Under the pieces are notes generated by a model that was given only the letters and a program-made list of their open reading frames with translations, was not told where the DNA came from and searched no databases. 64,000 nt of DNA, from the NCBI GenBank assembly GCA_903875575.1, contig CAIQWJ010000020.1, forward strand, positions 62,001-126,000, read 5' to 3'. Shown here piece by piece: positions 4,250-26,754 of this stretch; positions within the stretch are counted from its first letter, which is position 1, and each line of letters starts with the position of its first letter. This DNA comes from an uncultured Acidobacteriia bacterium. GTDB taxonomy: Bacteria; Acidobacteriota; Terriglobia; Bryobacterales; Bryobacteraceae. A program made the position numbers and the translations under genes.

Positions 4250-4288
4250 AGCCAACGGCCCCGGACGACGAGTTCGGGGCCGTTGGCT
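4250..4288 (+). terminator. Rho-independent-type hairpin after the NHL-repeat gene
   Basis: A 14-bp perfect stem (4250-4263 with 4275-4288) with an 11-nt loop lies 38 nt after the stop codon. The downstream tract is T-rich but not a pure T run. A-rich sequence on the other side could allow weak bidirectional action. Confidence 0.7.
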
Positions 4289-4358
4289 GTATGTGGTTGT
4301 TCTGAAAGGGTTGCAGGTGACTGAACCCGGTGTTTTTCCGGTCGTCTCCTGGGGTCTG

Positions 4359-4365
4359 ATAAACT
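4359..4365 (+). promoter_or_regulatory. Extended -10-like box before the sdh operon
   Basis: TGATAAACT (TAAACT at 4360-4365) ends 9 nt before the ATG at 4375. No Shine-Dalgarno sequence is visible, so the sdh transcript is probably leaderless or nearly so. Confidence 0.4.
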
Positions 4366-4374
4366 CCAGTTTTT

Positions 4375-5163
4375 ATGCCACATATTGATGTTCCGCTCAA
4401 ACGCGGACGGTTTGGGGAAACTTCACGCCCCGATAACTGGTGGATACAGCCACTGGTCGTGTTTCTGGGCTTCTCCGCCTTCATTTGTTATTCGACATGG
4501 GCGGCCCTGCAGGGTAATAATTACGCATCCGGCCCCCTGCTATCGCCCTTCTATTCACCACTGTTGTACGGGCCGGAACCGTATGCATGGTTTGGCGGCG
4601 GTCCTCCCTCCTGGTTTCCCTCCTTCCTTCCTTTCTCCTCGGCATTTCTGATTCTCTGGATACCTGGCGGCTTCCGGTTCACCTGCTATTACTACCGCGG
4701 GGCATACTACAAGGCGTTCTGGCAGGATCCACCAAACTGCGCGGTGGGCGAACCACGGAAGAAGTACTGGGGCGAGCGGACATTCCCGCTGATCATTCAG
4801 AACGTTCATCGCTACTTCATGTATCTGGCTGTGGCGTTCATCTTCCTGCTGGGACATGACGCGTGGGAAGCGACGAAGTTCGAAAACGGTCGTGGGGTCA
4901 GCGTGGGCACGCTGGTGCTGACGCTGAATACGGTGCTGCTCGGTTGCTACACGTTCGGGTGCCATTCTTTCCGTCATCTGGTGGGCGGGATGAAGGACAT
5001 CCTCTCGGCGTCACCGGTGCGGAAGAAAGCGTACGACTGCGTGGGTTGCCTGAATACGCGGCATATGCGGTTTGCGTGGTTCAGTTTGTTCTGCGTAGGT
5101 TTCTCGGACCTTTATGTGCGGATGTGCGCGATGGGCATCTGGACGGACTACAGGATCTTCTAA
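4375..5163 (+). CDS. sdhC: Succinate dehydrogenase membrane anchor subunit
   Basis: This 262-residue membrane protein has about five hydrophobic segments (near 25-45, 85-102, 143-161, 176-196 and 232-250). It sits directly upstream of sdhA and sdhB, which is the main basis for calling it the quinone-reducing anchor. It does not resemble the classical SdhC/SdhD pair; the single long anchor recalls mycobacterial Sdh1. Conserved-looking Cys and His residues cluster in two places: C191, C196, H197, H201 and C222, C225, H230. Additional histidines H145 and H161 lie in or near the third helix. These could bind heme or an Fe-S cluster. The gene is separated from sdhA by 14 nt. Confidence 0.75.
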   Translation: MPHIDVPLKRGRFGETSRPDNWWIQPLVVFLGFSAFICYSTWAALQGNNYASGPLLSPFYSPLLYGPEPYAWFGGGPPSWFPSFLPFSSAFLILWIPGGFRFTCYYYRGAYYKAFWQDPPNCAVGEPRKKYWGERTFPLIIQNVHRYFMYLAVAFIFLLGHDAWEATKFENGRGVSVGTLVLTLNTVLLGCYTFGCHSFRHLVGGMKDILSASPVRKKAYDCVGCLNTRHMRFAWFSLFCVGFSDLYVRMCAMGIWTDYRIF

Positions 5164-5177
5164 ACAGGCTTTGTAAC

Positions 5178-6992
5178 ATGGCGGAATATAAAACATTCGA
5201 ATACGACGTGCTGGTTATCGGCGCGGGCGGCGCAGGGTTGCGTGCCGCGATTGAAGCATCCTCCGCCGGGCTGAAGGTTGGCCTTGTGTGCAAGTCACTG
5301 CTGGGCAAGGCGCACACGGTGATGGCGGAAGGCGGCATGGCTGCCTCCATGGGTAATGTGGACGACCGCGACAGCTGGCGCGTTCACTTTGCCGACACGA
5401 TGCGAGGCGGACAGTATCTGAACAATCCGCGTATGGCGGAACTGCACGCGAGGGAAGCGGGCGACCGGGTGCGGGAGCTTGAGGCCTGGGGTGCGGTTTT
5501 CGATCGTACCAAGGACGGCAAGATTCTCCAGCGGAATTTCGGGGGCCATCGATATCCACGGCTGGCGCACGTGGGTGATCGGACAGGACTCGAGATGATC
5601 CGCACGCTCCAGGACCATGGGATTCATACCGGCATGGAAGTGCACATGGAATGCACGGTGCTGGATCTGCTGACGGACGGCGGGCGCATTGCGGGCGCGT
5701 TCGGCTATGGGCGCGAACTGGGTCGCTTCATGCTGTGGAAGGCCAAGGCCGTGGTGATGGCGACGGGCGGCGTGGGCCGGGCGTTCAAGATCACGAGTAA
5801 CAGCTGGGAGTACACGGGCGATGGGCAGGCACTTTGCTATCGCGCTGGCGCCCGGCTGATGGACATGGAGTTTGTGCAGTTCCATCCGACGGGGATGGTG
5901 TGGCCGCCCAGCGTGCGCGGAATTCTTGTGACCGAGGGTGTGCGCGGCGAAGGCGGCGTGCTGCGGAACAAGGACGGCAAGCGGTTCATGTTCGACGATA
6001 TTCCGGACAACTACAAGCCGCAGACGGCCGATAACGAAGAAGAAGGCTGGCGGTATGTGACGGGCGATAAGAACGCGCGCAGGCCACCGGAATTGCTGAC
6101 TCGGGATCACGTGGCGCGGTGTATCAATCGCGAAGTGCGCGAAGGGCGGGGAAGCCCGCATGGCGGTGTGTTCCTGGATATTGCGTGGATCAAGTCCAAG
6201 GTGCCGAATGGCGCGGAACATATCAAACGCAAACTGCCGAGCATGTATCACCAGTTCAAGCAACTGGCGGATCTGGACATTACCGAGACGCCGATGGAAA
6301 TCGGCCCGACGACGCACTACATCATGGGCGGCGTGAAGGTAGATGCGGATTCGCAGATGACGGACGTGCCCGGGTTGTTTGCGGCCGGCGAGTGCGCGGC
6401 TGGTCTGCACGGAGCGAATCGGCTGGGCGGAAATTCATTGTCGGATCTGGTGGTGTTCGGGATGCGCGCCGGGGCTTCGGCCGCGGCGTACGCGAAGGCG
6501 AACGGCTCGGTCACGGTGAATGCGGCTCAGGTGGATGCGATTGCGGCCGAGGCAGTGGCTCCGCTGAATCGCGAGGGTGGGCCGAGACCTTACGACATCC
6601 AGTTCGAACTGCAGGATTTCATGCAGGATCTGGTGGGTATTGTGCGCGTCGAGAAGGAAATGGCGCTGGCGATCGAGAAGCTGCAGGATATGAAGAAGCG
6701 GGCGGCGGGCGTATCGGCCGGCGGCAATCGCGAATACAATCCGGGTTGGCATACGGCGATCGATCTGCGGAATCTGCTGACGGTGTCGGAAGCGATTGCG
6801 CTTTCGGCGATCGACAGGAAAGAGAGCCGCGGGGCGCATTTCCGGGACGACTATCCGGAGAAGAGCGCAGAAGAAGGAACGTACAACCACACGATTAAGC
6901 GCGGTGCGGACGGGAGTATGCAGTTATCCCGCGAGCCGCTGCCGCCCATGACGGATGAGATGAAGCAGATCATTGAGGAGATGAAGTCATGA
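5178..6992 (+). CDS. sdhA: Succinate dehydrogenase / fumarate reductase flavoprotein subunit
   Basis: SdhA oxidises succinate to fumarate and passes electrons through SdhB to the anchor. The protein is 604 residues, normal for the family. It has an N-terminal FAD-binding GAGGAG (15-20), the flavin-attachment histidine in KAHT (H46) followed by MAEGG, the substrate-site HPTG, THYIMGGV and GLHGANRLGGNSL motifs, and the C-terminal Fum_red_C region. I chose the ATG at 5178, which gives the canonical family start; a much longer upstream extension in the same frame would overlap the anchor gene and shows no homology. It overlaps sdhB by 4 nt. Confidence 0.95.
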   Translation: MAEYKTFEYDVLVIGAGGAGLRAAIEASSAGLKVGLVCKSLLGKAHTVMAEGGMAASMGNVDDRDSWRVHFADTMRGGQYLNNPRMAELHAREAGDRVRELEAWGAVFDRTKDGKILQRNFGGHRYPRLAHVGDRTGLEMIRTLQDHGIHTGMEVHMECTVLDLLTDGGRIAGAFGYGRELGRFMLWKAKAVVMATGGVGRAFKITSNSWEYTGDGQALCYRAGARLMDMEFVQFHPTGMVWPPSVRGILVTEGVRGEGGVLRNKDGKRFMFDDIPDNYKPQTADNEEEGWRYVTGDKNARRPPELLTRDHVARCINREVREGRGSPHGGVFLDIAWIKSKVPNGAEHIKRKLPSMYHQFKQLADLDITETPMEIGPTTHYIMGGVKVDADSQMTDVPGLFAAGECAAGLHGANRLGGNSLSDLVVFGMRAGASAAAYAKANGSVTVNAAQVDAIAAEAVAPLNREGGPRPYDIQFELQDFMQDLVGIVRVEKEMALAIEKLQDMKKRAAGVSAGGNREYNPGWHTAIDLRNLLTVSEAIALSAIDRKESRGAHFRDDYPEKSAEEGTYNHTIKRGADGSMQLSREPLPPMTDEMKQIIEEMKS

Positions 6993-7726
6993 GCGAGGTG
7001 ACATTCCAGATCTGGCGTGGCGACCGGAATCAGGGCGCATTTCAGGAGTATAAAGCGGAAGTCACCGAAGGCATGGTGGTGCTGGATGTGGTTCACAAGA
7101 TCCAGGCCGAGCAAGCCAACGACATGGCTGTGCGGTGGAATTGTAAGGCGGGGAAGTGCGGGTCATGCTCGGCTGAGATTAATGGTATGCCGAAGCTGAT
7201 GTGCATGACTCGCATGAACACGCTGCCGGTGGATAAGCCGATCGTGATTGAGCCGATGAAGACGTTCCCGCTGATTCGCGATCTGGTGACGGACGTGAGC
7301 TGGAATTTCGAGGTCAAGAAGACGATCAAGAAGTTCAAGCCGCGGAAGGCGGATGCGCCGGACGGGACTTGGCGGGTGCAGCAGGCGGATGTGGACAGGC
7401 CGCAGGAGTTTCGGAAGTGCATTGAGTGCTTCCTGTGTCAGGACGTTTGCCATGTGCTGAGGGATCACCATATGCATTCGGAGTTCATCGGGCCGCGATT
7501 CCTTGTGTATACGGCGGCGCTGGAGATGAATCCGCTGGATACGGAAGACCGGCTGAAGGATTTGAAGGATCAGCACGGGATTGGGTTGTGTAATATCACG
7601 AAGTGCTGCACGAAAGTTTGTCCGGAACATATTACGATTACGGACAATGCGATTATCCCGCTGAAGGAACGCGTGGTGGACGAGTTTTTCGATCCGCTGG
7701 GTGGGCTGTTTAAGATGTTTCGGTAG
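6989..7726 (+). CDS. sdhB: Succinate dehydrogenase iron-sulfur subunit
   Basis: This 245-residue protein relays electrons from FAD to quinone. The plant-ferredoxin-type [2Fe-2S] ligands are C52, C57, C60 and C72. Two further cysteine groups, CIECFLCQDVC and CNITKCCTKVC, supply the [4Fe-4S] and [3Fe-4S] clusters. It starts within the sdhA stop (ATGA overlap), so translation is coupled. It ends the operon; no clear terminator follows before the next gene 57 nt downstream. Confidence 0.95.
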   Translation: MSEVTFQIWRGDRNQGAFQEYKAEVTEGMVVLDVVHKIQAEQANDMAVRWNCKAGKCGSCSAEINGMPKLMCMTRMNTLPVDKPIVIEPMKTFPLIRDLVTDVSWNFEVKKTIKKFKPRKADAPDGTWRVQQADVDRPQEFRKCIECFLCQDVCHVLRDHHMHSEFIGPRFLVYTAALEMNPLDTEDRLKDLKDQHGIGLCNITKCCTKVCPEHITITDNAIIPLKERVVDEFFDPLGGLFKMFR

Positions 7727-17704: not shown

Positions 17705-18466
17705 CTACTCGCCGCGGCGGCCACCTGGGCCACCGGGACCGCCGAACTGCGGTGTCACTTCATCCTGAGTGATCTGGCCATCGCCGTTCTTGTCGAGCGT
17801 CTTCAGGGACGCAGGTGCATTGTTGATCTCGTCGGCGGAGATTTCGCCGTTGTGGTCGGTATCGAGAGCGCTGAAGGCCAGGTCGAACTGGTTGCCGCCG
17901 CGGCCGCCGGGCCCGCGTCCGCCGCCAGGACCACCGGGTCCGCGGCCTTCACCGCCACCGAAGCCAGGGTTGGCCTGCTGGCGGTTCGCTTCGGCAAGTT
18001 TTACGATTTCGTCTTTGGTCAGGATGCCATCGTGATTTGCGTCGCCACGATCGAACATGCCCTGCATGCGCTCGGGTAGTTCGGATTTTTCGAGTTGGCC
18101 GTTCTTGTTGGCATCGAACATCATGAGGGTTGCAGTGAGTTCGGCGGCACTGGGTGCCGGTGCCGGGGCTTCCTCGCCACCGCCTTCACCTTCTCCGCGG
18201 CCACCACGGCCACCGCCGCGGCCCATCTGCATCTGCATGCCGGCTTCATCCTGAGTCAGCCTGCCGTCGCCGTTCTTATCGAGAGTACGGAGGCGCGCAG
18301 GTGAATTGGTGATCTCACCGGCGGAGAGCGCTCCGTCCTGGTTCACATCCACGGTGTTCAGGATGGGGCTCATGCGGAAGAAATTCATTCCACCGCCGCC
18401 GGGGCCCTGGGCGTATGCGCCGACAGCCCAACCTATGGATAAGGCAAGAATCAGAGTTAGTTTCAT
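17705..18466 (-). CDS. Secreted EF-hand calcium-binding protein
   Basis: A signal peptide (1-19, ending AYAQ) precedes a 253-residue protein with about six EF-hand loops: DVNQDGALSAGE, DKNGDGRLTQDE, DANKNGQLEKSE, DANHDGILTKDE, DTDHNGEISADE and DKNGDGQITQDE. Two Gly/Arg/Pro-rich linkers (about 82-105 and 177-200) separate the pairs. The partner is unknown. It is the first gene of the operon with the ApbE-DUF2271 and PepSY genes, so it may be a calcium-binding accessory of that system. Confidence 0.88.
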   Translation of the reverse strand: MKLTLILALSIGWAVGAYAQGPGGGGMNFFRMSPILNTVDVNQDGALSAGEITNSPARLRTLDKNGDGRLTQDEAGMQMQMGRGGGRGGRGEGEGGGEEAPAPAPSAAELTATLMMFDANKNGQLEKSELPERMQGMFDRGDANHDGILTKDEIVKLAEANRQQANPGFGGGEGRGPGGPGGGRGPGGRGGNQFDLAFSALDTDHNGEISADEINNAPASLKTLDKNGDGQITQDEVTPQFGGPGGPGGRRGE

Positions 18467-18643: not shown

Positions 18644-20146
18644 ATGCGGCGCCCCGCGGGGTGGCGCTGGCGGATGCGCGCTCTCGCATTTGCCGTGCTC
18701 GCGACCGGGGCCTTCGAGGTACCGGGTTACGGTATTGGTAACGGTTACGGGCACGGTACTTCGGGGGCTGTGATCACCTCAGCAGGAGCTATTGTTGCAG
18801 CGATTGACAGCAAGGAAGTGAATCGGGAGTATCTGAGTGATGGGTCATCGGCTACGGATGACCGGATCTCGTGCAAAGTGCGGCAGGCGGGGCCTTTCTA
18901 TGTGATGCTGGCAGGCATTTCGCGGTCGACTGACGGGTTTGACGCGCTGGAACTGGTGGAGGGGCTGTACCGTCCAGGCGACAGCGTGGACTTGTTCGCG
19001 GAACGTTTGGCAGCGGATTTTCCGTCGAGGCTGGGAGCGCTGCTCGATGGGGTTCGGGGGGCAGATCGGGCGGCGTTTGAAGAGTCATTCCTGGGGCAGG
19101 ATGTGCTGCAACTGAGCCTGCTGGGGAATGATCACGGCACGTTATGGAATGGGCCGCGAGTCGTTATGATCGGGTTCCGTGCTTCGTGGGATGCGGAAAA
19201 TGGGCGGGTGCGGGTGGTCGCGCATCGCAGCAGTTGCCCCGGGGATTGTGACAACTCCAATACGGTTTATCTGCTGGGTCTCCATGATGAAGCAGAGCAA
19301 TACGTAGCTCAGCATCGGGAATTGGCAGGGGACACGCGTTCGGTTCGGGCGCTGCAACTGATCCATCTGGAATATGCCAGCCATCCCGAGACGGTGGGCG
19401 GACCTTCGACCGTGATCCGGGTGACACCGGCGGGAGCAGTGATGGAGCAGGCGGGAGCTTGCGGGGCGGCTGCGTGGATGCCGCGCGTGGAACGGGAACT
19501 GGATGACACGATCGCCGCAGTGGAGAACGTGGTGGTACGGGAGGATATTGCGCAGTTTTCGAAGCGGGGATCGGAGGTGCGCACGGACGCGATCCATGCA
19601 ACTGTACGTGTGGTGGCGGGAAACGAAGCCTATGAGTGGAGCGATGGCTTCGAGGGGCTGCCGCAACCGTGGTGCAGCGGGGAGCTTTCGACGATGCTGC
19701 GGGTGACACGGCATATCCTCGCAGAAGGGCTGGGCACGCCTTCGCAGGGGGCGGCGATGAGCGGGGGCGCGACCGTAATGCTGAGTTTTCACGGGTCCAC
19801 GGCGCAGCATTTCTGGCAACTGGTGGTGGATTCACGGACCTATCCGCTGGCGTTTGACGGGCGCGCCTGGTTCTCGCAGGAGACAGGGAAACTGTTGCGT
19901 CTGCAGTGGCAGACCACAGATCTGAATCTGCCCGCCTCGGCGGGGATTGCACGGATCGAGTGGGATGAATCGTTCGGCACCAGCGAGATCGCAGGCCGGA
20001 CATTCCTGACACCGGATAAGGCGACCTATCGGGTGAGTTACGTGCGGAGAGCAGACCGGACGGACTGGACCGAGACCCGCTTTTCGGACTTCCGCCGGTA
20101 TGGAGCGACCGAGAACGTACGGTACGAAGAGGCGGCGATCCGATAG
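18644..20146 (+). CDS. Exported protein with a proteasome-like Ntn-hydrolase domain
   Basis: Not a family I can name. With the ATG at 18644 the protein has 500 residues: an Arg/Trp-rich N-region, a hydrophobic signal stretch, a short Gly-rich segment ending HG, then TSGAVITSAGAIVAAIDSK. If cleaved before T39 this matches the first strands of proteasome beta/HslV subunits, with Gly at -1, Thr at +1 and Asp at +17; a Lys at 78 (ISCKVRQAG, before FYVMLAG) fits the Lys33 position after a small insert. A later SVRALQLIHLEYA and GGPSTVIRVTPAG resemble the last helix and strand. Residues 245-500 are a separate unrecognised domain. The start is uncertain (18626 and 18674 are alternatives). Confidence 0.6.
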   Translation: MRRPAGWRWRMRALAFAVLATGAFEVPGYGIGNGYGHGTSGAVITSAGAIVAAIDSKEVNREYLSDGSSATDDRISCKVRQAGPFYVMLAGISRSTDGFDALELVEGLYRPGDSVDLFAERLAADFPSRLGALLDGVRGADRAAFEESFLGQDVLQLSLLGNDHGTLWNGPRVVMIGFRASWDAENGRVRVVAHRSSCPGDCDNSNTVYLLGLHDEAEQYVAQHRELAGDTRSVRALQLIHLEYASHPETVGGPSTVIRVTPAGAVMEQAGACGAAAWMPRVERELDDTIAAVENVVVREDIAQFSKRGSEVRTDAIHATVRVVAGNEAYEWSDGFEGLPQPWCSGELSTMLRVTRHILAEGLGTPSQGAAMSGGATVMLSFHGSTAQHFWQLVVDSRTYPLAFDGRAWFSQETGKLLRLQWQTTDLNLPASAGIARIEWDESFGTSEIAGRTFLTPDKATYRVSYVRRADRTDWTETRFSDFRRYGATENVRYEEAAIR

Positions 20147-20272
20147 ACCACCTTTGAGTGATTTGACGCTGCGGTGCGTCTGGCTACTCAGGGCGACAGT
20201 GGATTGGGGCCCCAAAGGGCGTATCTGACGCAGGATTCCGCCTTCGTACATTGGTCATCGAAATGCCGTACT

Positions 20273-20337
20273 ACTTGCCTTCGGCAAGTTGAAGACGGCA
20301 ATTCCAGACTAATTGTCAGTGACGCGTTTGCGTCACT
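20273..20337 (+). promoter_or_regulatory. Two hairpins in the cupredoxin leader
   Basis: ACTTGCC/GGCAAGT (20273-20289, 3-nt loop) and AGTGACGC/GCGTCACT (20318-20337, GTTT loop) lie in a row just upstream of the GAGGAG ribosome binding site at 20342-20347. They could be a terminator for the gene upstream, or a leader structure controlling the electron-transfer operon. Neither has a clean T run. Confidence 0.4.
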
Positions 20338-20353
20338 ATTCGAGGAGATGACT

Positions 20354-20950
20354 GTGCGCAGAACTCAGACCGTAGTGCGTTGGGTTGTGCTGCCCGCCGC
20401 GCTGCTCATGGCGGTGCGTGGCGTTCATGGGGCGACAATCACCGGGACAGTGAGCCCGGCGAAGGCGGATTCGGTGGTTTATGTGGAGGCGATTCCGGGC
20501 AAGAAGTTCCCTGCCCCGGCGAAGAGCTTCGATATGAACCAGAAGAACCTGCAATTCCTGCCGCACGTGCTTGTGGTGCCGGTGGGTGCAACGGTGGACT
20601 TTCTGAACAGCGATCCTCGACGGCACAACATCTTCTGGCCGTCGATCAACGGCGATGAGAAACAGAGCCACAATCTGGGGACCTGGCCGCAGGGACAGAA
20701 ACGGCCGTTCAAATTCACGACGGCAGGAATTGTACCGCTGGGGTGCAATGTGCATCCCGACATGTCGGCTTACATCATTGTGACTCCGACGCCTTACTTT
20801 GCGGTGACCGACGCCACGGGTGCCTTTAAGATTAACGGCGTGCCTGACGGGAGTTACAAAGTGTCGGCATGGCAGGAAGGGCTGAAGATGCAGACGAAGC
20901 CCGCGACTGTTACGGGAACCGCGAAGGTCTCCTTCACGCTGACGAAGTAG
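20354..20950 (+). CDS. Secreted cupredoxin (plastocyanin-like) with C-terminal regulatory-like domain
   Basis: After a signal peptide (cleavage near GVHGA) the protein has a type-1 copper fold: His in RRHNIFW, then C-N-V-H-P-D-M, which supplies the Cys, second His and Met ligands. The last 55 residues (FAVTDATGAFKINGVPDGSYKV) form a carboxypeptidase-regulatory-like beta domain. It likely carries electrons in the periplasm. I chose GTG 20354 because GGAG lies 6 nt upstream; an ATG at 20348 directly abuts the GAGGAG site. It heads the Rieske/cytochrome b locus, 8 nt before the flavoprotein gene, so it is a candidate electron partner of that complex. Confidence 0.85.
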   Translation: MRRTQTVVRWVVLPAALLMAVRGVHGATITGTVSPAKADSVVYVEAIPGKKFPAPAKSFDMNQKNLQFLPHVLVVPVGATVDFLNSDPRRHNIFWPSINGDEKQSHNLGTWPQGQKRPFKFTTAGIVPLGCNVHPDMSAYIIVTPTPYFAVTDATGAFKINGVPDGSYKVSAWQEGLKMQTKPATVTGTAKVSFTLTK

Positions 20951-20958
20951 GCGGGCGA

Positions 20959-22800
20959 GTGCCTGCGAAAGCCATGCGCGAGCGTTTCCAGCAGGACAAG
21001 AGAGTCGACAGCGAGTGGTTGCGGACGAACTTTCCGTGCATGATGGCATGCCCGGCGGGTACCGATGCGGGACGCTATGTGGCGCTCATTGCAGAGGGCA
21101 GGTATGAGGAGGCCTACCGATATGCGCGGGACCCCAATCCTTTGGCGAGTGTATGCGGGCGGGTATGCGCGCATCCCTGCGAGACGGCTTGCCGCCGCGG
21201 TGCAATTGATCGTCCGGTTGCGATCCGGGCGCTGAAGCGTTTTCTGACGGAACGGTACGGGCCGGAATCGCGCAATCCCCTGCCCGCCAATACCTGTAAG
21301 GTGCCGAAACAGGCGGGAAAGATAGCGATCGTCGGCAGCGGGCCTGTTGGGTTGACGGCGGCGCACGATCTCGCGCTGCTCGGCTATTCGGTCACCATAT
21401 TTGAAGCTGCGCCTGTGGCCGGGGGCATGCTGAATCTGGGGATACCGGAGTACCGGCTTCCCCGCTCCGTGGTAGAGGCACAGCTACGAGAGATCCTTGC
21501 GGCGGGCGATGTCACGCTGCGGCTGAATTGTGCCGCAGGGCGCGATTTCACGATTGCTCAGTTGCGGGAACAGGGCTTCGCTGCCATGGTGATTGCGGTG
21601 GGCGCGCACCAGAGCCGGGATCTTGCCATACCGGGTGCGGATCTGGACGGCGTTCACAAGGGTATCGACTTTCTGCTGAACGTGAATCTGGGATATCGAT
21701 TCGAGATTGGTGGGAAGGTAGCGGTTATTGGCGGCGGGAGTGTCGCGATGGACGTAGCGCGTTCCGCGCTGCGGGCATCGGCACTGGCGGCGCGCGAGAT
21801 GGCGGACGTATCGCTCTCGGCGCTGCGCCTGGGTGCGCGTGAGGTGACCATCATCTATCGCCGCCGGCGCGATCAGATGCGCGCGGCACGCGAGGAGATC
21901 CAGGAACTGGAGGTAGAGGGAGTCAGCGTTCTGGAAGGAAGAACTCCCGTACGGGTGTTGGGTCGCGCCGGTAAAGTGGTCGGCCTGGAGACGACTGACG
22001 CGAGTGGTGAGACGCAGATCATTACCTGCGACACCGTGATCCTTGCGATCGGGCAGGAAGCGAGGCTCGACTTTCTGAAGCCGGAAGATGGAGTTGGCGT
22101 GAATCCGGGTGGTCTGATCGCGGTTAACCCTGAGAGCCTGATGACGAGTGCTCCGGGTGTGTTCGCGGGTGGCGATTGCGTTTTCGGACCGCGGCTGATA
22201 ATCGACTCGGTAGGTGACGGGAAGCGGATCGCGCTGGGGATTGATGCGTATCTTTCGGGGCGTGTGCCTGCGGAGCCGGAGATTGAGGTGGAGATTCTTT
22301 CGCGGCATCGGATGTTTTCCAGTTACATGGAGATTCCGCGGCAGACGATTCCCACGCTGGCGCTGGAACGGCGCACAGGAATCACGGAAGTGGAACTGGT
22401 GTTTGATGAGGAGACCGCGCGCCTCGAAGCGCAGCGTTGCCTGCACTGCTGGGTGAATACGGTGTTCGAAGGCAGTGAAGAAGACGGTTCGCGCTGCACC
22501 TTGTGCGGCGGGTGCGCGGATGTTTGCCCGGAGAGTTGCATCCAACTGGTGCCGCTGGAGCGTATTGAGTTTCCCCTGGAGGCGCTGGGTGCGATGCAGA
22601 GTGAGAGTAGCCTGTTCCGCGTGGAACTTGACGATGTGGCGACATCGGAGTTGGGCACAATCACTGGCACGGCGCTATTGAAAGACGAAACGCGCTGCAT
22701 CCGGTGCGGGCTTTGTGCGGAGCGGTGCCCGGTGGGTGTGATCACGATGGAAGCGTGGTCGCTGCGTCCTGCTGCGGTGCTGGCGGGAGCGAGGAACTGA
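20959..22800 (+). CDS. Fe-S / FAD pyridine-nucleotide oxidoreductase (GltD-like) in the bc-complex operon
   Basis: A 613-residue protein with an N-terminal GltD-like helical Fe-S domain (CMMAC, then CGRVCAHPCETAC), a two-dinucleotide-binding flavoprotein core (GSGPVGLTAAHDLA near 117 for FAD and a second VIGGGSVAMDVARSA for NAD(P)H), and a C-terminal part with two ferredoxin-type cysteine clusters (CTLCGGCADVCPESC and CIRCGLCAERCP). Such proteins pass electrons between NAD(P)H, FAD and Fe-S clusters. No signal peptide is present, so it should face the cytoplasm. The GTG at 20959 lies 8 nt after the cupredoxin stop; ATG 20974 is an alternative. It precedes the Rieske gene by 1 nt. Confidence 0.85.
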   Translation: MPAKAMRERFQQDKRVDSEWLRTNFPCMMACPAGTDAGRYVALIAEGRYEEAYRYARDPNPLASVCGRVCAHPCETACRRGAIDRPVAIRALKRFLTERYGPESRNPLPANTCKVPKQAGKIAIVGSGPVGLTAAHDLALLGYSVTIFEAAPVAGGMLNLGIPEYRLPRSVVEAQLREILAAGDVTLRLNCAAGRDFTIAQLREQGFAAMVIAVGAHQSRDLAIPGADLDGVHKGIDFLLNVNLGYRFEIGGKVAVIGGGSVAMDVARSALRASALAAREMADVSLSALRLGAREVTIIYRRRRDQMRAAREEIQELEVEGVSVLEGRTPVRVLGRAGKVVGLETTDASGETQIITCDTVILAIGQEARLDFLKPEDGVGVNPGGLIAVNPESLMTSAPGVFAGGDCVFGPRLIIDSVGDGKRIALGIDAYLSGRVPAEPEIEVEILSRHRMFSSYMEIPRQTIPTLALERRTGITEVELVFDEETARLEAQRCLHCWVNTVFEGSEEDGSRCTLCGGCADVCPESCIQLVPLERIEFPLEALGAMQSESSLFRVELDDVATSELGTITGTALLKDETRCIRCGLCAERCPVGVITMEAWSLRPAAVLAGARN

Positions 22801-22801
22801 G

Positions 22802-23293
22802 ATGCCGGACCAGACACCCCACGTAGAGCGCGCATGTCCGGGGTGCAACCGGCGGCGATTCACTACTGCGGGGGTAGGGTCGCTGGCGATCGCGGGAATC
22901 GGCTCGGCCGTGTTTGGTTATGAGTTCCTGTCGCCGAATGCGCTCTATGAGCCTTCGCCGATTGTGGATGCAGGCAAGCCGGAGCGGTATCCGCCTGGCT
23001 CAGTCACGCCGGATGCGCAGAGCGGGCTGTACGTGGTGCACGGGCCGGAAGGTATTTATGCTCTCTCGGCAGTTTGCACCCATCTGGGCTGCGTGACGGC
23101 ATGGCGACCGGAACTGGATATGGTGGCGTGCCCCTGCCATGGCAGTAAGTTTCACATCGACGGCGTGAAGATTGAAGGGCCGGCACCGCGTCCCCTGCCC
23201 TGGCTGAAGGCGTGGCTGAACGATGAGGGCAATCTGATGATTGATCGTTCGGAGGCCCTGACGCGGAAGCAGTACGTGAGGGTGCAGGCGTGA
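22802..23293 (+). CDS. Rieske [2Fe-2S] protein of a cytochrome bc complex
   Basis: A 163-residue protein with a Tat-type N-terminus (NRRRFTTAG) followed by one membrane helix, and a Rieske fold with CTHLGC and CPCHGSKF as the Cys/His cluster ligands. The cluster normally takes electrons from quinol at the Qo site. It overlaps the cytochrome b gene by 4 nt and sits between the flavoprotein and cytochrome b genes, so it is very probably part of the same membrane complex. Confidence 0.93.
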
Positions 23294-24021
23294 ATTCGCT
23301 TTATTCAAGGCTGCGGGGTACGGCGGTGTGGCGCTCGGTCTTTCGATCAGGCACCGGGGACACCAACCTGCATCGGTCGCTTACGGTACAGCAGAACATC
23401 TTTCTGCATCTGGCATCCGTGAAGATCCGGCGGCGCGCGCTGGAGTTCGGCGTGACGTGGTATCTGGGGACGCTCAGCATGGCGTCCTTCGTGATCCTGG
23501 TGGTGACGGGCGTGCTGCTGATGCTCTATTACCATCCTTCCGTGCCGCAGGCTTATGCGGATATGAAAGATCTGCAGTTCGTGGTATCCGCCGGCGTGTT
23601 TCTGCGAAATCTGCACCGTTGGGCGGCGCACGCCATGGTGGTGCTGGTGTTCGCTCACATGTTCAAGGTGTTTTACCGGGGAGCATATCGGCCGCCGCGG
23701 GAGTTCAACTGGGTGGTGGGGGTGATGCTGTTGCTGCTCACGTTATTTCTGAGCTATACGGGTTATCTGCTGCCCTGGGATCAATTGGCGTTCTGGGCGA
23801 TTACGGTGGGTTCCAACATCATTTCCGCGGTGCCTGCGATGGGCGCGAAGATTCGCTTCCTGATGCTCGGCGGGCATACCGTGAATGCCAATGCCCTGCT
23901 CCGCTTCTATGTGTTGCACTGCGTGATTCTGCCGTTGATTGCGGCGGTATTTCTGGCTGTTCACTTCTGGCGGATTCGCAAAGATGGTGGACTGTATACG
24001 GGGGACAAGCCCCGTGAGTGA
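23290..24021 (+). CDS. Cytochrome b6-type subunit (N-terminal half of cytochrome b)
   Basis: Four-helix cytochrome b of 243 residues with both bis-His heme pairs. One pair is H-x13-H in [17 protein letters not shown]; the other is H-x14-H in [17 protein letters not shown], the b6f-like spacing. Matching segments are [17 protein letters not shown] and [11 protein letters not shown]. The position of the b6 cysteine that binds heme ci (FYCLGG in plants) reads WYLGT, so covalent heme ci is not expected. GTG start, overlapping the Rieske stop; the next gene overlaps it by 8 nt. Confidence 0.93.
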
Positions 24022-24718
24022 GCCGAAGGATTTCCGGGCGTCATTTGACAGCGACAGTCAGCGCACTCCGGTGCGGGTGGCATTCGTCACTCGCCGTACG
24101 ACACCGCATGTAACAAAGGCGGGCGACGACAGGGTGATGACGAATCCAGACGCACTGCTGCGGGTGGCAGTGGCCGTGATGGCGTTGCTGATTGTGCTTG
24201 TGGTGGTCTCGCTGCTGTTCGATGCGCCGCTCGAAGGTCTGGCGAATCCACTGCAGACGCCGAATCCCGCTAAGGCACCCTGGTACTTCCTGGGTCTGCA
24301 GGAACTGTTGCATTATTTCCCGCCGGTGGTGGCGGGCGTGGTGATTCCCTCGCTCGTGGTGCTGGCGCTGGTGGTGATTCCGTACTTCAACGTGAATGTG
24401 GAGGCGGAGGGTTTCTGGAACAGGAACGGGGAGCGGAAGTCTATCCTCGTCTGGGTAGCCGTAGCCGCGCTGAGCGCGTTCCTGGTGTGGTTCAGTGTGT
24501 ATGCTGTGCTGGTGCCTACGCTCGTGAGTGGCGGCGCACTGATCGTAACGGCGGCGGCACCGCCTCAGGATAAAGGCTTCGGCGGCTGGCTGCGCAGCAA
24601 GCCATTGCCCTTCTGGATCATGACCTGGTTCCTTGTGGTGGCCATCACGCTGACGGTGATCGGGACGTGTTTCCGCGGTGCCGGGTGGTCGTGGGTCTGG
24701 CCCTGGGGCGAGCTATGA
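24014..24718 (+). CDS. Cytochrome b subunit IV-type protein
   Basis: About 234 residues with an N-terminal soluble stretch and four or so membrane helices, matching the C-terminal half of cytochrome b/subunit IV. The Qo motif normally PEWY reads APWY in [16 protein letters not shown], so the catalytic Glu position is Pro. The start is GTG 24014, giving an 8-nt overlap with the b6 gene. The protein ends with an extra hydrophobic helix and a Trp-rich tail. Confidence 0.87.
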
Positions 24719-26754
24719 GTTTTCGTGTTCGTGGACGCAGGGTAAGGAAATGGTTCTTCGGCGACAGCGCCCGGGCATTTGGGACGCTGGGCGTGCTACT
24801 GCTGGCGCTGCTGGCAATCGTGCCCGCGAAGGATCGTTTTCGCGAGTGGCTCGGGTATCAGAAAGAGTACGAAATTCTGATTCGGGGTCGGACGGATGGC
24901 GTTGCTCTGGCCAAACGCTTCCAGAGCGGCGTGCAACAGATCTGGCTGCCGGAACGGGATGTCACGGATCGATGCATGACCTGCCATACGAGACTGAAAG
25001 AGACTTCGCTGGCCGGGGTTGGCCAGCCGTTCCGCCCGCATCCTCCCATTCCGCATTCGCTGACCGAATTTGGGTGCACGATTTGCCATCGAGGGCAAGG
25101 CGTTGCGACCACGGTGGAAGAGGCACATCGTAGCACGAAGGCATGGGAGGAACCGATCCTGCCCGCTCAGTACTCAGAAGCAGGTTGCGGGCAGTGCCAC
25201 CGGGACGGACTGAAAGGGACGCCGCAGCTCAATGCCGGGCGGGTGCTGCTCGCGCGGTACGGTTGCGTGAATTGCCACAGGCTGGTTTCTCCGGAAGGCG
25301 GGGCATCGCAGGGGACGGACCGGCCTCCCTCATTGAAACGGATCGCGGAGAAGACGACGCGGGAGTGGATTTACTTCTGGATCAAAGATCCGCAAGCTTG
25401 GGCGGCAACCGCAACGATGCCGAATTTCGGATTGAGCGACGCTGATGCACGGGATGTTTCAGCGTTTGTGATCAGCCAGAGTTCGCCTGGTTCCATTGCG
25501 CCGGCTGTGGCGACGAATGATGCAGGTGCAGCGGCGGGGGCTGAACTCTACGGGGAATCATTCTGCGCGTCCTGTCACGCAATGCAGAACGCAGCGGGTA
25601 AGATCACGGGCGGAGATCTGGCACCGGACTTGACGCGCGTGGGATCAAAAGTGCGTCCCGAGTGGCTCGCGGCCTGGGTGAAGAATCCTGCTGCGTATCT
25701 GCCCGGCACTATGATGCCGCATTTCCGGTTCGACGAGAAGCAAATTGGGTTGCTGGTGAGTTATCTCGGGCGCAAACAGGATTCTTATTTTCCGGCGAAC
25801 ATTCGCCTGGAACCGGCCACAGCAGCACAGATCGCTCACGGTCAGAAGTTGGTGTTGGAAAAGGGCTGCGCGGCATGCCATGAGATGAATGGCGTGGCGC
25901 GCCCAGACAACTTTGCGCCGGACCTGACGGCCGTCGGGAGTCTACCTCCTGCGAGAGTGCTGCTGGCTCCCGGGGTGCCTCGCACGCTGCCGGACTATTT
26001 GGCGGCGAAGATCCGCGAGCCTCATGCGTTCGGCAGGGAGATGAAGATGCCGCGGAACCAGTTCACCGATGCGCAGGTGGAGCAACTGGTGACTGCCCTG
26101 TTGGCCCAGACAAGCCGGTCTCAGACGTTCCCTGCCGCATTGCGGCGCCCGACGCCAGTGAACGTGACGTATCAGCCCGCAGGGCGAGCGGGACAACTGA
26201 TGAAGGATCTGCGCTGTCTTAGTTGTCATTCGATCAATGGGACGGGCGGCAGTATGGCTCCGGATCTCACCTGGGAAGGGAGTTCGGTGCAGCGCGCGTG
26301 GCTGCTGGACTTCCTGAAGAATCCGAATACGCTGCGGCCCGTGCTGATTCGCCGCATGCCACGGTTCAATCTGAGCAATGACGACGCGAGTACGCTGGCG
26401 GATTACATCATGACGGCTTATCAGACACCGGCGTTCGACCGTGAAGAAGTGGACGCGACCAAGCTGACGCCAACGGAGGCTTCGCGCGGGAAGAGTCTGT
26501 TTTACGGCAAGTACGCGTGCAATTCCTGCCACATTGTGGATCCGGATAACGACAAGGGGTACATCGGACCGACTCTGACACAAGCCGGCACCCGGCTGAA
26601 CGCTCCGTGGATCTTCCACTGGCTGAAGAATGCGCAGGCGTTGCGGCCCGGGTCACTGGAACTGAACTGGAATATGAATGACGAGGACGCATGGGCGATC
26701 ACGGCGTTCCTTATGCAGCAGAAGAACACGCGGAAACCGGGCGGTGAGCGATGA
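24715..26754 (+). CDS. Octaheme membrane-anchored cytochrome c
   Basis: A 679-residue protein with an N-terminal membrane helix (about 20-37) and eight CxxCH heme sites: residues 87-91, 121-125, 158-162, 184-188, 284-288, 385-389, 501-505 and 602-606. The last four or five sit in repeated class-I cytochrome c-like domains with distal-type Met segments (for example MPNFGLSD, MMPHFRFDE and MPRNQFTD). It starts within the subunit IV stop (ATGA). In this locus it most likely replaces cytochrome c1/f as the electron acceptor of the Rieske protein; direct transfer to a cupredoxin or terminal oxidase is inference. Confidence 0.92.
   Translation: MSFRVRGRRVRKWFFGDSARAFGTLGVLLLALLAIVPAKDRFREWLGYQKEYEILIRGRTDGVALAKRFQSGVQQIWLPERDVTDRCMTCHTRLKETSLAGVGQPFRPHPPIPHSLTEFGCTICHRGQGVATTVEEAHRSTKAWEEPILPAQYSEAGCGQCHRDGLKGTPQLNAGRVLLARYGCVNCHRLVSPEGGASQGTDRPPSLKRIAEKTTREWIYFWIKDPQAWAATATMPNFGLSDADARDVSAFVISQSSPGSIAPAVATNDAGAAAGAELYGESFCASCHAMQNAAGKITGGDLAPDLTRVGSKVRPEWLAAWVKNPAAYLPGTMMPHFRFDEKQIGLLVSYLGRKQDSYFPANIRLEPATAAQIAHGQKLVLEKGCAACHEMNGVARPDNFAPDLTAVGSLPPARVLLAPGVPRTLPDYLAAKIREPHAFGREMKMPRNQFTDAQVEQLVTALLAQTSRSQTFPAALRRPTPVNVTYQPAGRAGQLMKDLRCLSCHSINGTGGSMAPDLTWEGSSVQRAWLLDFLKNPNTLRPVLIRRMPRFNLSNDDASTLADYIMTAYQTPAFDREEVDATKLTPTEASRGKSLFYGKYACNSCHIVDPDNDKGYIGPTLTQAGTRLNAPWIFHWLKNAQALRPGSLELNWNMNDEDAWAITAFLMQQKNTRKPGGER

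Follow-up and report, generated by a model that had tools for sequence, protein, structure and literature searches.

A distant, apparently exported relative of the proteasome cutting subunit in a soil bacterium

The analysed stretch of DNA, here called the window, comprises 64,000 nucleotides of an uncultured acidobacterial genome. Its forward strand carries a gene that begins with an ATG at position 18644, ends with a stop codon at 20146 and encodes 500 residues, as the original prediction had it. Possible start codons lie upstream of the hydrophobic part of the N-terminal segment, the best nine-residue mean Kyte-Doolittle value of which is 2.34. The features of the gene are as follows, with mature residues counted from Thr39.

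18644..20146, + strand: whole gene (open reading frame), 500 residues, with export signal, propeptide, proteasome-like domain and LolA-like domain
18644..18715, + strand: signal-peptide-like segment, residues 1-24, with a basic start and hydrophobic ALAFAVLATGAF, identified from hydropathy; the cleavage site is putative
18716..18757, + strand: putative propeptide, residues 25-38, ending Tyr-Gly-His-Gly
18758..18760, + strand: Thr39, corresponding to Thr1, the predicted nucleophile; 30 of 30 family members; residue 1 of the model
18806..18808, + strand: Asp55, equivalent of Asp17; 30 of 30 members
18875..18877, + strand: Lys78 (mature residue 40), equivalent of Lys33 by sequence alignment; 29 of 30 members
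18914..18916, + strand: Gly91 (mature residue 53), equivalent of the oxyanion residue Gly47; 30 of 30 members; placed by sequence position within the ..LAG motif rather than by structural superposition
18758..19459, + strand: proteasome-like Ntn-hydrolase domain, mature residues 1-234; AlphaFold2 model, VIA-align and PDB profile matches
19478..20098, + strand: LolA-like C-terminal domain, mature residues 241-447; Foldseek, with relatives that are encoded separately

The protein contains the residues to which the original prediction had drawn attention: His37-Gly38-Thr39, an aspartate at exactly +17 (residue 55) and a lysine ahead of FYVMLAG (residue 78, mature 40). The second domain, which the prediction had noticed without recognising it, exists and looks LolA-like according to Foldseek. 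No Pfam or NCBIfam model matches the window protein at E<=10, including Pfam PF00227 (Proteasome) and the NCBIfam HslV models. The N- and C-terminal domains are encoded by one gene in some relatives and by two adjoining genes in others (L041, L044, L045 and L046), and we therefore describe the window protein as two modules.

Downstream of the gene, positions 20174-26754 of the + strand contain respiratory-chain genes. Judging from their translations, we take these to encode a cupredoxin-like protein, a NAD(P)-oxidoreductase/ferredoxin fusion, a Rieske protein, parts of cytochrome b and a multihaem cytochrome c, presumably forming an alternative bc-type complex. Two of the genes have relatives near the closest copy of the window gene (L042), in a different arrangement; among the respiratory genes, Pfam was run on the cytochrome c relative at L042 only. 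A divergent gene on the - strand (17705-18466) encodes a small exported-looking protein with Gly-rich linkers and repeated DxNxDG motifs, which we assume to be EF-hand-like.

The structure of the protein was predicted with AlphaFold2 from six sequences, those of the window, L064, L065, two from L066, and L067. The resulting model has a mean pLDDT of 78.2; the ten-residue blocks of the first domain range from 75 to 93 except for two (58 and 66), and those of the C-terminal domain from 59 to 87. A single-sequence model of the whole protein reached a pLDDT of 32 and was discarded. VIA-align places residues 1..234 of the model on proteasome and Anbu chains, the first residue of the model being aligned with the first of the chain. 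The best structural match is Anbu, the ancestral beta subunit (5nyw, Z 18.8, 184 residues, 2.4 A), which differs from the window protein in its lack of a LolA-like domain and shares 16% identity with it. Yeast beta5 (5d0v) is aligned with Z 18.4 over 177 residues at 2.6 A, and the best 50 entries listed, with Z between 17.5 and 18.8, are all proteasome or Anbu. The original prediction had staked its claim on an alpha-beta-beta-alpha fold. For the model of residues 39-272, Z indeed reaches about 18 against both proteasome beta and Anbu, and the core sandwich of the superfamily, strands with flanking helix pairs, is present in the predicted domain. The top PDB match of Foldseek is also a proteasome subunit (5fmg_J, E 1.5e-6), in a loose alignment with an rmsd of 6.7 and a TM score of 0.60 by target length and 0.28 by the length of the query, which comprises two domains.

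Relatives of the window protein occur in 39 of 61 related genomes, its own included, and among the matches listed they mostly cover the C-terminal half only. Intact N-terminal domains are present in twelve copies, counting that of the window, in nine of the 19 genomes of the genus. A profile of the genus N-terminal domains matches nine of 396 genomes of the phylum, again including the genome of the window, and in the eight other genomes the nine loci share 19-27% identity with the window copy. The widened profile A4 finds matches in 10 of 147 genomes of one other class and 10 of 193 genomes of another, sets that overlap the 396 genomes of the phylum. Since few genomes of each set match, the family is patchy in occurrence. 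Residues were counted in an acidobacterial alignment of 30 members (A7), comprising twelve sequences from the genus, the window included, and 18 from outside it, at 18-57% identity to the window copy. Frame-broken or partial sequences at G017:C12 (L104/L136/L138, Ser before Thr) and G492:C113 (L124/L126, Ala before Thr), the fragments L121, L122, L147, L148 and L125, and duplicates of used loci were dropped before counting. One extra Ala in L143 shifts its aspartate to +18 before alignment. Profile scans of viral contigs with A3 and A5, carried out with a virus origin in mind, gave no relatives, and plasmids contained no match to the window protein or to L056.

The wider family connects to the proteasome superfamily in sequence as well. 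Of the 49 PDB sequences that the A7 profile matches at E<=10, 42 are proteasome, HslV or BPH; the other seven are three IRSp53 entries and four helical designed or binder proteins. The only two matches with E<0.001 are BPH structures (5ovu, 6.1e-4; 5ovs, 8.2e-4), and positions 1-49 of A7 fall on 1-50 of 5ovu, threonine on threonine and lysine on lysine. PF00227 matches six of the 30 members weakly (best E 0.0023), and the NCBIfam HslV models match one, at E 0.014-0.019. With hhalign, A7 aligned to 29 HslV sequences of related genomes scores 30.6, and the 18 non-genus members alone score 41.6 (E 7.3e-6, probability 84%); no score above 21.7 arose when the columns of A7 were shuffled 100 times. 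A profile comparison with nearby Anbu-like proteins scores 30.8 (E 8.2e-4). The genus-only profile A1 shows no significant match to the HslV or Anbu-like sets (E 0.13 and 0.06) and no proteasome among PDB sequences, where it finds only two designed helical proteins. The case that the window copy is homologous to the proteasome therefore depends on the wider family and on the model.

The active-site residues are nearly invariant. Thr1, Asp17, Gly53 and Gly174 are present in all 30 members and Lys40 in 29, and the window copy has all four of Thr1, Asp17 and the Lys33 and Gly47 equivalents, the last two assigned by sequence alignment. With this conservation across 30 members, the combination of Thr1, Asp17, Gly53 and Lys40 is more than a chance resemblance; relatives without Thr and Asp17, which would have spoken against the original prediction, do not occur in the alignment. 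The twelve domains of the genus have in common Thr1, Asp17, Ser18, Gly53, Leu92, Cys160, Gly162, Cys164, Leu173, Gly174 and His176. In the proteasome, the Ser129-Asp166-Ser169 set serves the amine of Thr1, according to passages of PMC4792962. This auxiliary set is not kept across the family, in agreement with the original prediction: the column after Gly174 (175), taken as the Ser129 site, has Ser in one of 30 members, and columns 210-214, the region of Asp166 and Ser169, read P-[D 13, E 6, A 5, others]-x-V-G, all three positions being assigned by sequence alignment instead of superposed coordinates. In the exception to the conserved lysine, L040:4442-5155, Asn replaces the residue. The locus (G012:C200) has two fused copies in tandem, 4250-5875 and 5863-7488; the first, which carries the Asn, is perhaps an inactive partner subunit. 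The alignment and the model support the predicted fold, the intact triad and the second domain, and we regard a proteasome-like fold with a complete triad as nearly certain.

Export was judged from hydropathy and from residue counts at positions -3 and -1. To count as export-type, an N-terminus had to contain a nine-residue stretch with a mean Kyte-Doolittle value of at least 2.0 among the 45 residues ahead of Thr1, and a possible start codon no later than this stretch. The original prediction had called the protein secreted; what stood is the hydrophobic N-terminal segment with a possible start codon, found in 25 of the 30 members, from which it is very likely that the protein is exported. 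Thr1 is preceded by Ala in 16 members, by Gly in twelve, and by Gln and Met in one each. Signal peptidase I favours Ala, Val, Leu or Ser at -3, and all 16 members with Ala before Thr1 have A, V, L or S there, with a hydrophobic nine-residue window close by that starts at -13 to -20. For comparison, Ala stands before 37 of 371 internal threonines, and 60 of the 371 satisfy a less strict rule for -3 and -1. Export itself would therefore uncover the nucleophile in the 16 members with this signal-peptidase-I-like site.

A different arrangement is found in seven of the twelve genus members, the window copy among them, which have [Y/A]-[G/S]-H-G directly before the threonine. Tyr occupies -4 in six of the seven, the preceding stretch varies, and the hydrophobic stretch is mostly further off, at -19 to -31. 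Passages of PMC4792962 describe that eukaryotic beta5 propeptides carry His(-2) and Gly(-1), and that Thr1 attacks the carbonyl of Gly(-1). By analogy, self-cleavage at His-Gly|Thr is fairly likely in the branch of the window. The self-processing proposed in the original prediction can thus be retained, conditionally, for this branch, but the 16 members in which signal peptidase would expose the threonine would not need it, which the prediction had not foreseen. Eight rows are of the His-Gly type if L063 with KHG is counted, and the tree explains them with three changes. Six fused-type copies, that of the window among them, group together (97/90), separately from L041 and L063. How often the His-Gly and Ala types were exchanged can be estimated only roughly, since much of the deep branching is poorly supported and long branches come together.

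Members with and without a signal-like segment also differ in their cysteines. Four cysteines are present within the aligned domain of 23 of the 30 members. Cys39 occurs in 25 of 25 members with a signal-like segment and in two of five without, so that the three members lacking it are all signal-less, and the Cys160-Cys164 pair occurs in 21 of 25 versus two of five. This pattern fits an oxidising compartment, with the signal and cysteine counts not independent on the tree. The five members without a signal-like segment are L048, L057, L061, L063 and L120, one of which begins Met-Thr. Three of them, L061 (G399), L120 (G463) and L048 (G015), also lack Cys39, one starting Met-Thr, and may be similar to the cytoplasmic forms from which the apparently exported members descend.

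The window protein could be a cytoplasmic homolog with a hydrophobic N-terminal tail that only looks like a signal. The five signal-less members and the start codon of the window gene, which is only predicted, are in line with this reading. We nevertheless consider it quite improbable, given the signal-like segment in 25 members, the -3/-1 site exactly at Thr1 in 16, the distribution of Cys39 and the Cys160-Cys164 pair, and a C-terminal domain with the predicted fold of periplasmic LolA and RseB. Penicillin G acylase, gamma-glutamyltranspeptidase and choloylglycine hydrolase types are exported and self-processing enzymes, and a protein of such an Ntn family might merely resemble the proteasome. 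The sequence profiles lead to BPH, HslV and PF00227 instead, and make this origin very improbable; the best 50 VIA-align entries are all proteasome or Anbu, although the absence of the other families there is no test against them.

The exported proteasome-like fold might also have lost its activity and serve as a structural or binding protein, with Thr1 buried behind the propeptide. In favour of this reading are the absence of the second proton-relay set and, in one tandem copy, of Lys40, as well as the existence of catalytically inactive relatives, the proteasome alpha subunits, stated in section 3.3 of PMC8665760. The retention of Thr1, Asp17 and Gly53 in all members and of Lys40 in all but one, despite identities to the window copy as low as 18%, and the restriction of the residue before Thr1 to Ala or Gly in all but two members, argue against this loss and render it unlikely. 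We conclude that the window protein is probably an exported member of the proteasome-like Ntn-hydrolase superfamily. Peptidase-type activity is somewhat favoured; a peptidase of narrow specificity, or a ligase like connectase, fits best.

The C-terminal half accounts for the Foldseek matches to the LolA superfamily protein 3buu (E 4.5e-6) and the DUF1329 protein 4z48 (6.3e-6), at moderate model confidence, and for weaker ones to RseB (2v43, 7.2e-4) and LolB (9tpm, 2.2e-3). The likeness to LolA, LolB and RseB is one of fold, at 8-10% identity and with no Pfam match for the window protein. Relatives of the domain are found in separate downstream genes or within other proteins. Many (L005, L006, L007, L008, L009 and L020-L039) are exported-looking acidobacterial proteins of about 280-610 residues, several of which end in FRNYRKF-type motifs. 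Pfam names a LolA-like domain in none of seven tested relatives; five have no match at all, L022 has a sub-threshold DUF5666 in another part, and L005 has one chance match.

Four pairs of separate N- and C-domain genes, the paralog in the genome of the window (L041, G000:C17) and L044, L045 and L046, adjoin exopolysaccharide genes, namely those for Wza-like export (PF02563), Wzc-like (GNVR) and Wzy_C proteins and a TPR gene; some context genes were identified with Pfam and others matched to them by tblastn. The C-terminal domain alone (L051) lies beside a TPR-Wza-Wzc-Wzy module, and the fused copy L047 has only the TPR gene in the stretch examined. Names of genes at L041 and L150 include NCBIfam XrtA/PEP-CTERM-system models, below cut-off. 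The link to exopolysaccharides is partial, because contigs that lack an N-domain gene can have TPR-Wza pairs too (G012:C4, G007:C336, G000:C91 and G010:C29) and independent events are few. A role of the enzyme as exosortase replacement was rejected: all 19 genomes of the genus have an exosortase match, so it is not a genome-wide substitute, and those with N- and C-domain pairs have it on other contigs.

Among known proteins, BPH and HslV, group I of Fuchs et al., are the best sequence-profile matches in the PDB. HslV is cytoplasmic and acts with its partner HslU. In related genomes, KQRIRS-type residues instead of a signal precede its threonine, and where it has an IGSGG stretch, the family described here has LGxH or IGxT, as we read the alignment. 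Proteins of related genomes that begin Met-Thr are, we assume, Anbu-like. The 20S beta5 subunit shares with the window protein His(-2)Gly(-1)Thr1 and the Asp17, Lys33 and Gly47 equivalents; the window protein differs in the loss of Ser129/Asp166/Ser169, its apparent export and its fusion to a LolA-like domain. According to the main text of Fuchs et al. 2021 (PMC8665760), 22 new proteasome homologs exist, and propeptides are found in proteasome beta and HslV and in no other homolog. Like the window protein, these homologs are bacterial members of the superfamily of unknown function, some with unassigned C-terminal domains, and one of their clusters may include the proteins described here. The same main text does not mention signal peptides or secreted, periplasmic, extracellular or acidobacterial homologs, and no periplasmic, exported or acidobacterial proteasome homolog, nor an Ntn hydrolase with an N-terminal threonine uncovered by signal peptidase, was found in the open-licence literature, represented mostly by titles and abstract openings. 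Two features look new: the export-type N-termini of 25 members and the signal-peptidase-I-like end at Ala|Thr1 of 16.

Based on the sequences and the predicted structure, we infer how the protein may be exported, freed of its propeptide and active outside the cytoplasm, and what its LolA-like domain may do. A Sec-type signal would direct the protein across the inner membrane, and signal peptidase would remove the signal. In the branch of the window, a short propeptide ending His-Gly would remain. In the folded protein, the Ogamma of Thr39, activated by Lys78 and Asp55, would attack Gly38 and free itself, by analogy with beta5. Export and activation would be a single step in the many relatives whose Thr1 is expected to be laid bare by signal peptidase I. 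Once mature, Thr1 would act on an amide bond outside the cytoplasm, by cleavage or transfer, with no ATPase involved. The C-terminal domain may either bind and present a hydrophobic or envelope-bound substrate or dock the enzyme; as an assignment of its function, this is a possibility with the odds against it. We speculate that an exported branch in the Acidobacteriota has in many members replaced the propeptide by a signal peptide cut directly before Thr1, so that the enzyme is active only outside the cytoplasm, that the branch of the window cleaves off its own His-Gly propeptide, and that these ATPase-free enzymes, paired with or fused to the LolA-like domain in the genus of the window, partly serve exopolysaccharide export loci. 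This combined scenario is tentative and may well fail as a whole.

Textbooks describe proteasome-type proteases as machinery of the cytoplasm. If the proposed export and activity are correct, the proteasome fold can operate beyond the compartment that contains ATP, with no need of an unfoldase. The superfamily would have a second route to an N-terminal threonine nucleophile, by signal peptidase as opposed to self-cleavage, and a target of the proteasome-inhibitor type would be placed in the cell envelope. Such exported enzymes may include ligases, following the example of connectase. Besides the paralog L041, the genome of the window encodes a proteasome-like protein of about 290 residues that starts MTIAAGFLCSDGVLLCADTE (L098:1553-2431, - strand, G000:C74; PF00227 E 1.9e-6), and, at G000:C70, the product of a separate gene of the HslV type with a strong PF00227 match.
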